From contig NZ_JH660659.1 in assembly GCF_000262545.1 (NCBI RefSeq), positions 253,240 through 317,239 on the forward strand: a stretch of DNA of 64,000 nucleotides, read 5' to 3'. The position numbers were made by a program, and so were the translations under genes. Source of the DNA: Prevotella bivia DSM 20514. Its GTDB lineage: Bacteria > Bacteroidota > Bacteroidia > Bacteroidales > Bacteroidaceae. Below, one piece after another: positions 9,304-53,276 of this stretch. Each line of letters opens with the position of its first letter. The first letter of the stretch is position 1. The notes beneath the pieces are model-generated. The model was not told the DNA's origin, made no database searches, and was given only the letters and a program-made list of their open reading frames with translations.

Positions 9304-9416
9304 TTTTTAAACTAGTTTCAAATTAAAATATTTTCAAGCCACTTTCTTTTATTAAATCTCAAACAAAAGCTTTTAATTAAAATTATCAACATAAACTACT
9401 TAAAAGATTACTATTT

Positions 9417-9519
9417 AAAAGGTAAGCTTTTACCCCATAAAAGATGACCTTTTAATAAGTAAAAGGTAAGCTTTTGTGGTGTAAAACGTTACCTTTTAGA
9501 AAGTCAAAGCTTAGCTTTT
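9417..9519. repeat. 22-bp-period palindromic array A (5 units)
   Basis: Five 15-bp units start at 9417, 9439, 9461, 9483 and 9505, exactly 22 bp apart: AAAAGGTAAGCTTTT (units 1 and 3), AAAAGATGACCTTTT, AAAACGTTACCTTTT and CAAAGCTTAGCTTTT. Each is separated from the next by a 7-bp linker of different sequence. The shared form AAAAGNTNANCTTTT is its own reverse complement. The array fills the 233-bp gap between the distal GH92 and GH20 and begins 18 bp past the GH92 stop. Related arrays occur at 26.3, 39.1 and 51.2 kb. Function unknown. Confidence 0.85.
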
Positions 9520-9536
9520 CTGCACTCTTTTATTAT

Positions 9537-26311: not shown

Positions 26312-26524
26312 CAGAAATAACCTATTTGATTACAAATGATAACCTTTTAAAAAGCAAACTATCACCTTTAAAGTAGCAAAAGCTTATCTTTCCAAAAGAA
26401 AAACAAATTATTTTTGATCCTTTTTTAATTTATTTTTATCTGAAAAATAAATTATTTTTCAGGCAAATAGTTTAGCTTTTATCACCATATACATAACCTT
26501 TTACACAACAATCACTTCTCTTTT
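26312..26524. repeat. 22-bp-period palindromic array B (about 10 units)
   Basis: Units start every 22 bp from 26312 to 26510. Examples are AAATGATAACCTTTT (26334), AAACTATCACCTTTA (26356), AAAAGCTTATCTTTC (26378), AAAATAAATTATTTT (26444), AATAGTTTAGCTTTT (26466) and TATACATAACCTTTT (26488). Linkers are 7 bp and vary. The TTTT at positions 12-15 is kept in most units even where the left half has drifted. The units at 26422 and 26444 are identical to units of array D at 51.3 kb. Confidence 0.8.
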
Positions 26525-26694
26525 ACACTTAGAACGATATTTCATTACCATTGTTACGCTATATAAAAGCATATCCATAGGCGATCTTTCCCCCCTCCAA
26601 TTGACAACAATACTTGCTATAAACAACAAAAGCTCGCCTATCACTTAACAATAATTATTAGCAATATATAAGGTATAAACCACTATTTTTTTGT

Positions 26695-29062: not shown

Positions 29063-29097
29063 TTCTCAACTCTCAACTCTCAATTCTCAACTCTCAA
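29063..29097. repeat. Heptamer tandem repeat YTCTCAA x5
   Basis: Five direct copies of a 7-bp unit (TTCTCAA or CTCTCAA) lie back to back and stop at the panD stop codon. They could vary in number by slippage. No coding role: they lie just after panD. Confidence 0.85.
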
Positions 29098-29446: not shown

Positions 29447-30298
29447 TTATCCTTTATATTTAATATGATCAATCAAACGAATTGGAGTATTCCCACAATA
29501 TACAGTAATACATCCCACAATATATGCACTATCATCCCATGTTTCCACATCGAGTAAAGTATTACCATCTACTATTTGAAAATACTCTACCTCTAATCCT
29601 TCAATGCCATTGATCTGACTTATTACATAGTTATGAGTATCTTTAAGACTATGTGTTTTACTATAAGCAATACTTTCACTCAAAGCTCTATAAATACTTG
29701 GAGCAATAGCACGTTCTTCCTTAGTTAACAATGTGTTACGTGAACTTTTTGCAAGCCCATCTTCATCACGTACAATTTCACATTCTACGATTTGAATATT
29801 CATTCCGACATAATCGACGAGACGTTTTATAACAGCTATCTGCTGCCAATCTTTCTCACCAAAATAAGCCCTATTAGGCTTCACTATAAAGAATAATTTA
29901 CTAACAATTTGGCACACACCATTGAAATGCCCGGGACGTTTAGCACCTTCCATCACTGTTGATTGTGGTGAAAACTCAAAAGTACGCTCATCCTTAATTG
30001 GGTATATTTCTTCTACAGTAGGTGCAAATACAATAGTTGCTCCACTCGCTTCCAAAAGCTTACAATCAGCTTCTAATGTTCTTGGATAGCGATCTAAATC
30101 TCCTTGATCATTAAACTGAGTGGGATTTAAGAATATAGAAACAACAGTAACATTGTTATCTTTTACACTGCGTTTTACCAATGAAGCATGACCTTCATGC
30201 AAAGCTCCCATCGTAGGGACTAAACCTATAGAATTGCCTTCTTTACGGAGCTGAAAAAGTTCGTTTTGAAGTTCTACTATTTTGTTAAGTACTTTCAT
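29447..30298 (-). CDS. panC: Pantothenate synthetase (pantoate-beta-alanine ligase)
   Basis: ATP-dependent ligase of the last pantothenate step. The start at [11 protein letters not shown] (30298) gives about 283 residues, the usual length; the frame opens 10 codons upstream. Motifs: [18 protein letters not shown] (HIGH-like nucleotide site), [27 protein letters not shown] and a [13 protein letters not shown] (KMSKS-like) loop. Operon with panD directly downstream, which supplies beta-alanine for this reaction. Confidence 0.96.
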
Positions 30299-38990: not shown

Positions 38991-39108
38991 TTCTTATTAG
39001 CTAAACGATGGCTCTACTTGTAAGGAATACTAGAAAAAATAGGACAAACAAGATCTCTTCACTACTTTCTTTTATACCTTGTAACTATTTGATATTCATT
39101 TCGTTACA

Positions 39109-39233
39109 AAAAGGTCATCTTTTACCTTAAAAAAGATGACCTTTTTATGAGTAATACATCACCTTTTGGTGAGTAAAAGGTGATGTATTGCAATGTAAAC
39201 GCTTATATATTGTATAGCGAATATGAATATTTT
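39109..39233. repeat. 22-bp-period palindromic array C (5-6 units)
   Basis: Units start at 39109 (AAAAGGTCATCTTTT), 39131 (AAAAGATGACCTTTT, identical to the second unit of array A), 39153 (AATACATCACCTTTT), 39175 (AAAAGGTGATGTATT), 39197 (AAACGCTTATATATT) and weakly at 39219. Linkers are 7 bp. It lies between the PCMD operon promoter/IS30 relic and the porin terminator. Confidence 0.82.
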
Positions 39234-48506: not shown

Positions 48507-51098
48507 ATGACATTCGACAAATTTACTATTAAAGCACAAGAAATCATTCAGAGTGCCGTTATGATTGCACAGCAAAAAGGTCAGCAAACGATTGAAGCTA
48601 TACACCTTTTGGCAGGTGCTTTAGACAAAGGCAAAGAAGTAACCAACTATGTTTTTCAAAAGTTGGGCATCAACACTCAAAACGTAGAAAATGCAGTGCA
48701 AAGCGAGCTTGCTCATTTACCAAAAGTGCAGGGTGGCGAACCGTATTTCTCGTCAGAAACTAATCAGGTGCTACAAAAAACTGTTGAAATTTCACAGCAG
48801 TTGGGCGATGAGTTTGTAAGTATCGAACCCCTACTCCTTGCACTACTCACTGTGAAAAGTACTGCTTCACGCATTATGAAGGATGCAGGTTGTACTGAAA
48901 AAGAAATGAAAGCAGCTATTAACGAACTGCGCCAAGGTCAGAAAGTGCAATCACAGAGTGGTGATGAAAACTATCAAGCACTTGAAAAGTATGCGCGCAA
49001 CTTGGTAGAAGATGCGCGCAACGGTAAGCTCGACCCTGTGATTGGGCGTGATGAAGAGATAAGACGTGTGCTTCAGATTCTCTCGCGTCGAACCAAAAAT
49101 AACCCAATACTTATTGGTGAACCAGGTACGGGTAAGACAGCTATTGTAGAAGGCTTGGCTGAACGTATTGTGCGTGGCGATGTCCCTGAAAACTTAAAGG
49201 ATAAAAAGCTTTATTCTTTGGATATGGGAGCGCTTGTTGCTGGTGCAAAATACAAAGGAGAATTTGAGGAACGCTTAAAGAGTGTGATTAAAGAGGTTAC
49301 CAATGCGGAAGGCAACATTATCCTTTTCATCGACGAAATCCACACACTTGTGGGTGCAGGTGGTGGCGGTGAAGGAGCTATGGATGCTGCAAACATCCTA
49401 AAACCTGCTCTTGCTCGTGGTGAATTGCGCGCTATTGGTGCTACAACATTGAACGAATATCAGAAGTATTTCGAGAAGGACAAAGCATTGGAACGCCGTT
49501 TCCAAACGGTGATGGTAGATGAACCTAGCGAACTTGATGCTATCTCTATCCTCCGTGGTTTAAAAGAACGCTACGAAAACCACCACAAAGTGCGTATTCA
49601 AGACGATGCTTGTATAGCTGCCGTAACGCTTTCTGAACGTTATATTTCAGATAGGTTCCTACCCGACAAAGCTATCGACTTGATGGACGAAGCTGCTGCA
49701 AAACTTCGTATGGAGCGCGACTCTGTACCTGAAGAGTTAGACGAAATCACACGCCGTCTAAAACAATTAGAGATAGAGCGTGAGGCTATCAAACGTGAAA
49801 ACGATACCGAAAAGATAGCGGTTCTTGACAAAGATATTGCTGAACTGAGAGAACAAGAACATAGCTTCCGTGCTAAATGGGAAGGAGAACGTGAACTTGT
49901 AAACAAAATTCAGCAAGACAAACAAAGCATAGAACAGCTAAAATATGAGGCTGAACGTGCGGAGCGTGAGGGTAATTACGAGCGTGTGGCAGAGATAAGA
50001 TACTCCAAACTCAAGGCTTTGGAAGACGATATTCGCAAAATACAAGAACAACTGCAATCGGCTCAAGGTGCTGAAGCGATGGTAAGAGAGGAAGTAACAG
50101 CAGACGACATTGCCGAAGTGGTAAGCCGCTGGACAGGTATTCCTGTAACACGTATGATGCAGAGCGAGCGTGAAAAACTGCTCCACTTAGAAGATGAACT
50201 TCACCAACGTGTCATCGGGCAAGAGGAAGCCATTACAGCGGTGGCTGATGCCGTACGCAGATCGCGTGCAGGACTACAAGATCCTAAGAAACCTATCGCT
50301 TCTTTCATCTTCCTAGGCACGACAGGTACAGGTAAAACAGAACTTGCAAAAGCACTAGCCGACTATCTGTTTAACGACGAAACAATGATGACACGTATTG
50401 ATATGAGCGAGTATCAAGAGAAGTTTAGCGTATCACGACTCATCGGAGCACCTCCAGGATATGTGGGTTACGATGAGGGTGGACAGCTCACGGAGGCTGT
50501 AAGACGCAAACCTTACTCTGTTGTACTCTTCGATGAGATAGAAAAAGCTCACCCTGATGTATTCAACATCTTATTACAAGTGTTGGACGATGGTAGACTG
50601 ACTGATAATAAAGGTCGCACCGTCAACTTCAAGAATACGATTATCATTATGACCTCTAACCTTGGTTCGCAGTATATTCAGCAACAATTCCAAGAACTAA
50701 GGGAGGACAATCGTGAGGAAGTTATCAATAAAACAAAGGTTACTGTAATGGATATGCTAAAGCAAACCATTCGTCCTGAGTTTTTAAATCGTATAGATGA
50801 AACGATTATGTTTTTACCATTGACACAGAAGGAAATAGCAGGCGTAGTAAAACTACAGCTTGAACGTGTAAAAGCAATGCTCCAGCCTCAAGGCTTAACC
50901 TTAGAATGGACAGATCCTGCTGTAAACTATCTAGCCGAGATGGGCTACGATCCTGAATTTGGTGCTCGACCTGTAAAGCGTGCTATACAACGCTATGTTT
51001 TGAATAATTTGAGTAAATCAATCTTGAATGGCACTGTAAATCGTGATAAACCAATCATTATTGACAACTTTGGCACAGAGCTTGTATTTAGAAATTAA
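48507..51098 (+). CDS. clpB: ATP-dependent chaperone ClpB
   Basis: The disaggregase that works with DnaK to recover aggregated proteins. The 863-residue protein has Clp_N repeats (1-145), AAA1 with GEPGTGKTA and [15 protein letters not shown], a long coiled-coil middle domain (about 400-525, [17 protein letters not shown] to [13 protein letters not shown]) that distinguishes it from ClpC, and AAA2 with GTTGTGKTE and [10 protein letters not shown]. No ClpP-docking loop is seen, as expected. clpB and the clpC-type gene both occur in this window, each behind a GGCATATNATTTG motif. Confidence 0.96.
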
Positions 51099-51160: not shown

Positions 51161-51198
51161 AAAGGAGATGGACTTGTGATAAGCCCATCTCCTTTTTC
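51161..51198 (+). terminator. Terminator of clpB
   Basis: AAAGGAGATGG-CTT pairs with AAG-CCATCTCCTTT around GTGAT, followed by T-rich sequence. It lies 62 bp after the clpB stop. Confidence 0.88.
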
Positions 51199-51225
51199 TT
51201 TGTATACATAAAGCAACTAAAAAAG

Positions 51226-51438
51226 AAAAGCTCACCTTTCACGTAAAGAAAGATAAGCTTTTCTGCTGTAATACATGACCTTTCAACTTGCAAAAGGTTA
51301 TGTTTGAAAAGTATTTTTAATTTATTTTTGCTTGAAAAATAAATTAAAATCAAAACAAAAATAAATTATTTTTGTTCTTAAAAAATAAGCTTTTAATAAG
51401 CCAACAATAATCCTTTACTTTTTAAAACATTATCACTT
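51226..51438. repeat. 22-bp-period palindromic array D (10 units)
   Basis: Units start every 22 bp from 51226: AAAAGCTCACCTTTC, GAAAGATAAGCTTTT, AATACATGACCTTTC, AAAAGGTTATGTTTG, TTTTTAATTTATTTT, AAAATAAATTAAAAT, AAAATAAATTATTTT, AAAAAATAAGCTTTT, CAACAATAATCCTTT, AAAACATTATCACTT. It fills the gap between the clpB terminator and the stop of the convergent lplA-lipA gene, ending 18 bp from that stop. Confidence 0.82.
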
Positions 51439-51455
51439 ACTACTTAGCAGCTCAT

Positions 51456-53276
51456 CTACCCTTCGGCTGCATGATAAGATGAGCGAACTAAGGGACCACT
51501 CACTACATGCTTAAAGCCTTTCTCTAGGGCTATTTTTTTGTATTCGTTAAACTGTTCTGGCGTAATATAAGCCATAACAGGAAGATGTTTTGATGTTGGT
51601 TGAAGGTATTGCCCAAGTGTTAAACGCTTACAACCAGTAGCAAGAATATCGTCCATCGTTTCAAGGATTTCTTCGTGAGTTTCACCTAGTCCTAACATAA
51701 AGCCTGTCTTAGCCTCTACCCCCCAATTGGTTATCTCTTGTAATACACTCAAACTCTGATCATACTTTGCCACACTTCTCACGGTTGGTGTAAGGCTACG
51801 CACGGTCTCCATGTTATGTCCACATACATGAGGTTTTGTGGCAAGAACCTTTTGCAGGAGTTCTTTCCTACCCATAAAGTCGGGAATAAGCAACTCTATC
51901 TTTGTGTTAGGGCAGGTTTGTTGGATAGCTTTCACTGTTTTTACCCAATGATCAGCTCCATAATCAGGAAGATCGTCTCTATCTACTGATGTGATGACAG
52001 CATAACGAAGATTAAGCTCTTTAATCGTTTCGGCTACGTGTTGAGGTTCATTAGGATCGAGCGCATGTGGCTTACCACTTAGTGTATTACAAAATTTACA
52101 CTTACGTGTACATATTTCTCCGCCTATCATCAATGTAGCAGTACGAGCAGCCCAACACTCTGTGCGGTTAGGACAAAGCCCACTAGTACAAATCGTATTC
52201 ATACGATGACGTGAGAGGATACCCGCAGTTTCGCCCGAAGTTTTCTTGGAAGTAAGATCTATCTTCAACCATTCTGGCTTCATTACATGGGGAGTGCGTC
52301 CAAAAAGTAGGCGTAAGAACTGGGGCAGCGTAAAATTACGGATTACTGTTCCTAAGTTAATATTCGCAAGTTTCTCCTCTACAGCCTCGCGCGTAAAAGG
52401 AACATTTTTTAGAAGATCTAGCAAATCACGGTCAAGATCACCAATTAAGAAATAATCGCCCATAAGATTGATTTTCTTAATCACTCCATTCTTTAGCTCG
52501 ATAACAGCATCTATCGTACCTACGTCTTTAAATCGCTTTGTGCGTTTCTCTGTGTATTTGGGATTTTGACCATATACAAATTCATCAGAGGCAAGTTCTG
52601 CCTCTATTATCTCTATTTGCTTCATATCCTCAGAAGTTAGCTCTCTTACCTCATCACCACATGTGAAATGCTGTACATAATCAATGAAATCGGAGATAGG
52701 CATATCAAGATAATCGCCTACATTCTTGACACGCTGGCGAACCGACTCTACCCCCTTACTTTGCAATTTCTCTTTAGCTGGTGTTAAGGCACTAGCTAGA
52801 TGCTCTAACTGTGTATTATAAAGCAAAGAATTGTGTAACACACTCCTACCCTTTAGTTTATAGAACGCACAACCAGCCACTTTCTGCCCATCTACAAGAA
52901 TATCATTACGCCCAGAAAGTTGAGCATCAACATTAAGACTTTGCAACACAAGTGCTACGTTTTTCATGTGGGTATAAAAGGCTTCATTTACATTAGAATC
53001 GTTAGAAATGTAAGAAAACTGAAGGCAACCACGATCGGCATAGATACAGCCTCCTCCACTCTTACGGCGGAAGATATGGATATTATTTGCCTTACAGTAA
53101 TCTACATCTACTTCGTTATGTATAAGCTGGTTGCGCCCAAGCATAACCGTAGGCTCAACACTCCACACCATATAATAATCATCATCGGTGTAAGTATGTG
53201 CTACATATTCTTCAACAGCAAAATAGAAAGGTAAGAGCTTTGCCTTAGACCTTTCAGGAATGATCAAATATTTCAT
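51456..53276 (-). CDS. Fused lipoate-protein ligase A / lipoyl synthase
   Basis: One 606-residue frame holds two enzymes. Residues about 1-330 are LplA-like: FRRKSGGGCIYADRGCLQFSY, GRNDILVDGQKVAGCAFYKLKGRSVLHNSLL (lysine near 133), and a C-terminal accessory domain. Residues about 340-606 are radical-SAM LipA: auxiliary cluster CTSGLCPNRTEC, radical-SAM cluster CTRKCKFCN, then TSVDRDDLPDYGADHW, MGRKELLQKVL, GLGETHEEILE, RLTLGQYLQPTSKHLPV and terminal GPLVRSSYHA. It would both attach scavenged lipoate and insert sulfur into octanoyl groups. It converges on clpB and diverges from gcvT, whose operon encodes the H protein it would modify. A weak -7 box TAAATTTG lies at 53290-53297. Confidence 0.93.
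   Translation of the reverse strand: MKYLIIPERSKAKLLPFYFAVEEYVAHTYTDDDYYMVWSVEPTVMLGRNQLIHNEVDVDYCKANNIHIFRRKSGGGCIYADRGCLQFSYISNDSNVNEAFYTHMKNVALVLQSLNVDAQLSGRNDILVDGQKVAGCAFYKLKGRSVLHNSLLYNTQLEHLASALTPAKEKLQSKGVESVRQRVKNVGDYLDMPISDFIDYVQHFTCGDEVRELTSEDMKQIEIIEAELASDEFVYGQNPKYTEKRTKRFKDVGTIDAVIELKNGVIKKINLMGDYFLIGDLDRDLLDLLKNVPFTREAVEEKLANINLGTVIRNFTLPQFLRLLFGRTPHVMKPEWLKIDLTSKKTSGETAGILSRHRMNTICTSGLCPNRTECWAARTATLMIGGEICTRKCKFCNTLSGKPHALDPNEPQHVAETIKELNLRYAVITSVDRDDLPDYGADHWVKTVKAIQQTCPNTKIELLIPDFMGRKELLQKVLATKPHVCGHNMETVRSLTPTVRSVAKYDQSLSVLQEITNWGVEAKTGFMLGLGETHEEILETMDDILATGCKRLTLGQYLQPTSKHLPVMAYITPEQFNEYKKIALEKGFKHVVSGPLVRSSYHAAEG

Follow-up and report, generated by a model that had tools for sequence, protein, structure and literature searches.

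Array D and its likeness to array B

Within the 64-kb window (the whole stretch of DNA analysed here), an intergenic array named array D holds whole 15-mers that recur in a second array, array B, which raises the question of whether sequence was copied between these two loci or whether both belong to something that concerns the chromosome at large. Array D was initially annotated at positions 51226–51438. A lattice scan showed that its bounds are better set at 51225–51439, where it consists of 10 units of exactly 22 bp each and scores 129.9, with no match in the Markov control and with copies genome-wide. On one side of it, clpB (encoding ClpB, TIGR03346) stops at 51098 and has its own hairpin terminator at about 51164–51197, beside the array; on the other side lies a convergent gene on the minus strand encoding a lipoate ligase/lipoyl synthase fusion (51456–53276, NF053790). 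Array D is thus located between two gene 3′ ends, as the initial annotation had stated. Its RNA fold has a z of -6.1.

The left part of array D is formed by four G-type boxes (51225–51307, starting at 51225, 51247, 51269 and 51291) with the consensus YAAAAGVTNABCTTTTR, obtained from a PWM of 112 flanking boxes in 28 long arrays. They are followed by AT-only core box 1 (ATTTTTAATTTATTTTT, 51313–51329), which includes the shared 15-mer TTTTTAATTTATTTT, by core box 2 (AAAAATAAATTAAAATC, 51335–51351; consensus AAAAATAAATTAAAAA), and by core box 3, the palindrome AAAAATAAATTATTTTT (51357–51373), which includes the shared 15-mer AAAATAAATTATTTT. Three right-hand boxes placed by the lattice scan (51379–51439) are degenerate toward the lipA stop.

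Both 15-mers were confirmed as common to the two arrays. AAAATAAATTATTTT is present in exactly two copies in the window, at 26444 in array B and 51358 in array D, and so is TTTTTAATTTATTTT, at 26422 and 51314, while dinucleotide shuffles gave expectations of only 0.01 and 0.00 copies, respectively; a near copy, AAAATAAATTAAAAT, lies at 51336–51350 in array D. Together with the empty Markov control, these values bear out the earlier view that the likeness is not a coincidence of AT bias. The sharing is real but not private to arrays B and D, as array D matched about 40 loci on all three contigs, where the core recurs, when our own genome (2.52 Mb) was searched. The idea that units or blocks were copied or homogenised between loci was not supported, since the boxes are common and the spacers between them are not, and whole-block copying between arrays B and D is ruled out by their differing spacers.

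Build and size classes of the genome-wide family

Once set on a 22-bp grid, nearly every one of the approximately 40 loci displayed the same build, in which a unit made of a 15–17-bp box (AAAA-N7-TTTT) and a 5–7-bp spacer is repeated every 22 bp, which places an A/T tract every 11.0 bp, close to one helix face. The flanking boxes follow the dyad-symmetric consensus given above, and the centre of the long arrays usually comprises three AT-only boxes, the first being TTTTTAATTTATTTTT or AAAAATAATTTATTTTT, the second AAAAATAAATTAAAAA and the third AAAAATAAATTATTTTT. Between flanking boxes, the columns in the middle of the spacer hold only 0.06 to 0.18 bits, which is near-random, and the spacers are unrelated between copies. 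The step to the next box was exactly 22 bp in 187 of 197 cases, and the phase coherence of the A/T tracts peaked at 11.0 bp (R 0.98 in short and 0.85 in long arrays) and was lower at 10.5 bp. The core pattern with a gap of 9 instead of 8 had no match anywhere, our own genome included, a sign of rigid spacing.

With the lattice scan, 41 arrays in 800 kb of contig C3 and four in the window scored above 50, a value reached by no Markov sequence, and reversed sequence topped at 34.9. The arrays fall into two classes. Short arrays lack the AT core and in most cases consist of exactly 5 units; array A (9416–9520) and array C (39108–39212), each of exactly 5 units, represent them in the window, and in array C the units form two near-perfect hairpins by pairing. 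In the long class, arrays comprise 7 to 14 units and almost always an AT-only core; its members in the window are array D and array B (26333–26525, 9 units), which lies between ruvC and a carboxyltransferase gene and has its core on the minus strand when D is taken as the reference. The boxes of 15–17 bp vary inside an array and the spacers measure 5–7 bp, which does not agree with CRISPR, and no array of the window matched an Rfam model, a tRNA being the sole Rfam match there. At one locus (L010, C3:1840 kb), the last box of the array runs into TATCTTTG, the Bacteroidetes -7 promoter motif; some array boxes may thus double as promoter elements.

Placement among genes

All 45 arrays checked are intergenic, 29 of them between tandem, 11 between convergent and 5 between divergent genes, with genes taken from simple ORF calling; in a few cases the edge of an array extends into the end of a called ORF, by 74 bp at most. 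The 3′–3′ position of array D is therefore not a general rule. Among all intergenic regions longer than 200 bp (n = 178), 111 are tandem, 21 convergent and 46 divergent, so convergent sites are mildly enriched (11/45 versus 21/178). The intergenic region of 40 of the 45 arrays has at least one gene 3′ end, as is the case in most intergenic regions.

Repeats of other kinds were also seen in the window. A tandem heptamer, TCTCAAC, of about five copies is located at 29064–29097, just 3′ of panD (aspartate decarboxylase), and is a possible slippage site, and an imperfect 22-bp tandem repeat (TCCCACAATATACAGCAATACA) lies within the panC 3′ end at 29491–29539.

Minimum distance and bias toward the origin

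To describe the distribution of the arrays, a genome map of about 105 arrays (44 long and 61 short, giving 102 intervals) was compiled by hand from the matches of a long-class and a short-class model, with positions outside the fetched stretches taken from the model searches. Against uniform placement, 0 of 102 intervals were below 5 kb (19.5 expected) and 3 of 102 below 8 kb (29.4 expected); scan matches at noise level were judged singly, and of the two left out, at 658 kb (score 33) and 818 kb (score 25), the former would add one interval of 5.5 kb. In the 640 kb of C3 between 580 and 1220 kb, the 38 arrays had no interval below 8 kb against 13.8 expected from random intergenic placement, a result reached in 0 of 20,000 simulations. 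Short and long arrays obey this spacing jointly. The effect is one of minimum distance, as a strict periodicity of about 11 kb was rejected (periodogram p = 0.64). In two stretches of our genome no array was found, C3:1314–1490 kb (176 kb) and 452–572 kb (120 kb), and these could be acquired islands.

The only perfect parS site is located at C3:834462, where the strand-corrected GC3 skew, used because the raw GC skew of the samples was uninformative, changes sign, as it does once more near C2 150 kb. The dnaA gene is on contig C1, far from this origin indicated by parS and skew on C3; a large distance between dnaA and the origin is common in Bacteroidetes (PMC4755523). On C3, the median distance from parS was 161 kb for long arrays versus 560 kb for short arrays (p = 3e-5), and 18 of 36 long versus 3 of 49 short arrays fell within 150 kb of it (p = 5e-6). 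When the arrays were mapped relative to gene ends and origin, then, the link to convergent gene ends proved only mild, while the long arrays clustered at the origin.

Arrays in other Prevotella genomes

The exact core pair is also present in P. amnii and in two uncultured Prevotella, and the bare A4/T4 lattice was found in 110 of 276 Prevotella species genomes, some with more than 400 matches, with species-specific box centres. At the lattice threshold used, the remaining 166 of 276 genomes had no match, which indicates that the array system is not essential to the genus. The "backwards" pattern used as a search control is invalid because the lattice is half-period symmetric. We make no claim beyond Prevotella, because the order-wide counts outside the genus came, judging from the matches shown, largely from AT-rich genomes with A/T runs. 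Lattices of 22 bp with a different make (AAAAGAAATATTTTTCATCGTG, near-identical units) were seen in two other Prevotella, at G333 C1:1489217 and G800 C3:202005.

Of three array sites in P. amnii that are collinear with our genome, two are occupied here as well (array A among them) and one is empty here. In the two orthologous arrays, A/T tracts are identical at 72 of 80 positions (90%), centres at 38 of 70 and spacers at 22 of 56 (39%). Given that tracts and not spacers are kept, this looks like constraint on the boxes and not like recent block copying. Rearrangement breakpoints were found at 5 of 8 P. amnii array junctions versus 6 of 43 other gene junctions (p = 0.008), a comparison of small numbers that covers part of our genome. 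At P. amnii L082 and L089 (C3:649 kb and 675.6 kb in our genome), both junctions of one rearrangement carry arrays, as if an inversion or exchange had run through them. What looked like a 54-unit array in P. amnii proved to be a stretch of N and was discarded.

A second near-complete Prevotella genome (G275, two contigs) has 97 arrays, the closest pair of which is 1.7 kb apart. There, the spacing rule is weak if present at all (interval ratio 0.44 versus 0.386 for random, p = 0.05), and since its arrays break the 8-kb distance, the rule is at present a property of our genome only.

Possible function of the arrays

Given the 22-bp grid, the intergenic sites, the distance of at least 5 kb and the long class round the origin, it is more likely that the arrays mark the chromosome structurally than that they switch local genes. 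We propose, with a probability of roughly 0.4, that they are dispersed chromosome-organising lattice sites for a putative nucleoid protein, anchoring loops or supercoil domains, a reading drawn from sequence features. Such a protein, probably with one dimer per 22-bp unit, would bind the lattice cooperatively; the DNA of a bound array would be intrinsically curved and slightly underwound, and the complex might pin a bend or loop tip and so delimit supercoil or loop domains about every 10–25 kb, with long arrays as the stronger anchors, mainly in the origin region. A 22-bp unit corresponds to 11.0 bp per turn; bacterial genomes show a period close to this value, approximately 11 bp, which is often associated with negative supercoiling (PMC4132750). 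As suggested earlier, spacing and origin clustering point to a chromosome-scale role. Counting against the organising-site reading are the spacing in G275, the adjacent reverse-complement units described below, the turnover of arrays relative to P. amnii, and the 166 genomes without a match.

A regulatory role is the least credible of the other readings. Each array could be an operator bound by a local transcription regulator of the neighbouring gene, and dyad-symmetric boxes at the helical repeat are indeed typical of cooperative operators, but we regard this as highly improbable, since about 105 sites lie by many different genes, many of them 3′ of genes (11 convergent), and keep a minimum distance. 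The doubt raised earlier about a simple operator role was thus well founded. Action at the RNA level, of the REP/BIME kind, is possible though doubtful: hairpins formed between transcribed units would either shield the 3′ ends of mRNAs or end transcription in both directions as intrinsic terminators, for which the AAAA...TTTT frame would provide the A tract and the U tract. In 20 pairs, where 3.1 were expected, neighbouring units are near-perfect reverse complements. This count speaks for hairpins in the short arrays, five of which fold at z -5.1 to -11.6, and array D itself has the z given above; the mild excess of convergent sites agrees with this as well. Template-switch correction of quasi-palindromes could, alternatively, be the source of complementary adjacent units. 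However, the pairing partners vary by array, the pairs in long arrays barely covary beyond the same-position expectation, 5 of 45 arrays lie between divergent genes, and a separate clpB terminator already adjoins array D. Terminators moreover need no exact 22-bp step over 10 units, no 5–8 kb exclusion and no clustering at the origin.

We consider it unlikely that the arrays descend from an old dispersed non-autonomous element, like PINSR or BrickBuilt, which was copied in an ancestor and whose spacing came from transposition immunity or loss of close pairs. Four short arrays (C3:627784, 1131221, 1154653 and 1314182) do have in common a leader of about 85 bp and a TTAAATATTTTC tail, and sites were gained or lost between species and occur at synteny breakpoints, where some PINSR copies also lie (PMC4755523). 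Yet the spacers are not common to the copies, the two orthologous arrays were kept in place with diverged spacers, long arrays have, by inspection, no common flanks or terminal repeats, no match was found in phage or plasmid collections, and transposition does not explain why one class clusters at the origin. Separately, 6 of 15 short arrays have TTGATNATCA, with at most 1 mismatch, at a distance of 19 to 30 bp.

Taken together, the rigid phase, conserved tracts, free spacers, intergenic position, minimum distance and origin bias agree more with structural DNA sites than with local operators, with terminators or with mobile copies of recent date. A more far-reaching version, which we offer tentatively and hold to be doubtful, is that of a chromosome-scale ruler, in which phased A/T-tract arrays at a minimum distance, with a strong class at the origin, would be read by a putative Prevotella nucleoid protein that sets domains. 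The way in which bacterial chromosomes are partitioned into domains of some 10 kb is a question without a settled answer, and to our knowledge no DNA sequence marking the domain borders is known in most species. With about 105 countable, spaced and origin-biased sites, this question becomes directly testable.

Comparison with known systems

The REP/BIME elements of E. coli, which the arrays resemble in part, are mosaic palindromic units that number in the hundreds, lie between genes, often near their 3′ ends, and form hairpins. In the arrays, adjacent complementary pairs are enriched, the short arrays fold strongly and covariation in the long arrays is weak; the arrays differ in that 5 to 14 units stand on an exact 22-bp A/T-tract lattice, in their minimum distance and in the clustering of one class at the origin. 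The matS sites bound by MatP in the E. coli terminus domain are single short palindromes of 13 bp repeated along one domain. As expected of domain-organising sites of this kind, the distribution of the arrays is uneven, with long arrays round parS and the origin, but the arrays have many boxes each and occur genome-wide, and we know of no MatP-like partner for them.

Clusters of A-tracts phased at about 11 bp in bacterial genomes have been proposed to give curvature to the DNA and to aid nucleoid packaging (PMC3940949, PMC4132750). The arrays likewise have A/T tracts phased near the helical repeat, but they are discrete, conserved and countable, with sequence-specific box centres, unlike that diffuse statistical signal. 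BrickBuilt, a dispersed MITE of Porphyromonas gingivalis (Bacteroidales), has internal 23 nt tandem repeats (PMC4596501), yet it differs in its IS5-type terminal inverted repeats and in the repeat itself (AGAYCATARTATCCTCTCRTRTG), and array spacers and flanks differ between copies, with no common ends seen in the long arrays by inspection.

In the literature on 22-bp Prevotella repeats, we found nothing beyond BrickBuilt and PINSR, and the latter, compared by description, is the closest published relative of the arrays. PINSR of P. intermedia, to which no function has been assigned, is described as one 188-bp repeat with 177 and 184 copies per genome (PMC4755523). Like PINSR, the arrays are intergenic (45/45), non-coding and without terminal inverted repeats, and reach a high copy number in Prevotella (about 105 versus one to two hundred); in both, many positions are kept between the genomes compared (strains in PINSR) and some inversions run between copies (PMC4755523). 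What sets the arrays apart is their 22-bp lattice, their division into two size classes, their spacing and their bias toward the origin, none of which is reported for PINSR. PINSR has been described only from the P. intermedia/nigrescens group, whereas lattice arrays occur in P. amnii as well as in 110 of the 276 Prevotella species genomes searched; P. amnii is not among the PINSR PCR-positive species (PMC4755523), yet it carries lattice arrays. PINSR may be a P. intermedia relative of these arrays, so that a repeat already in the literature may belong to a genus-wide lattice.
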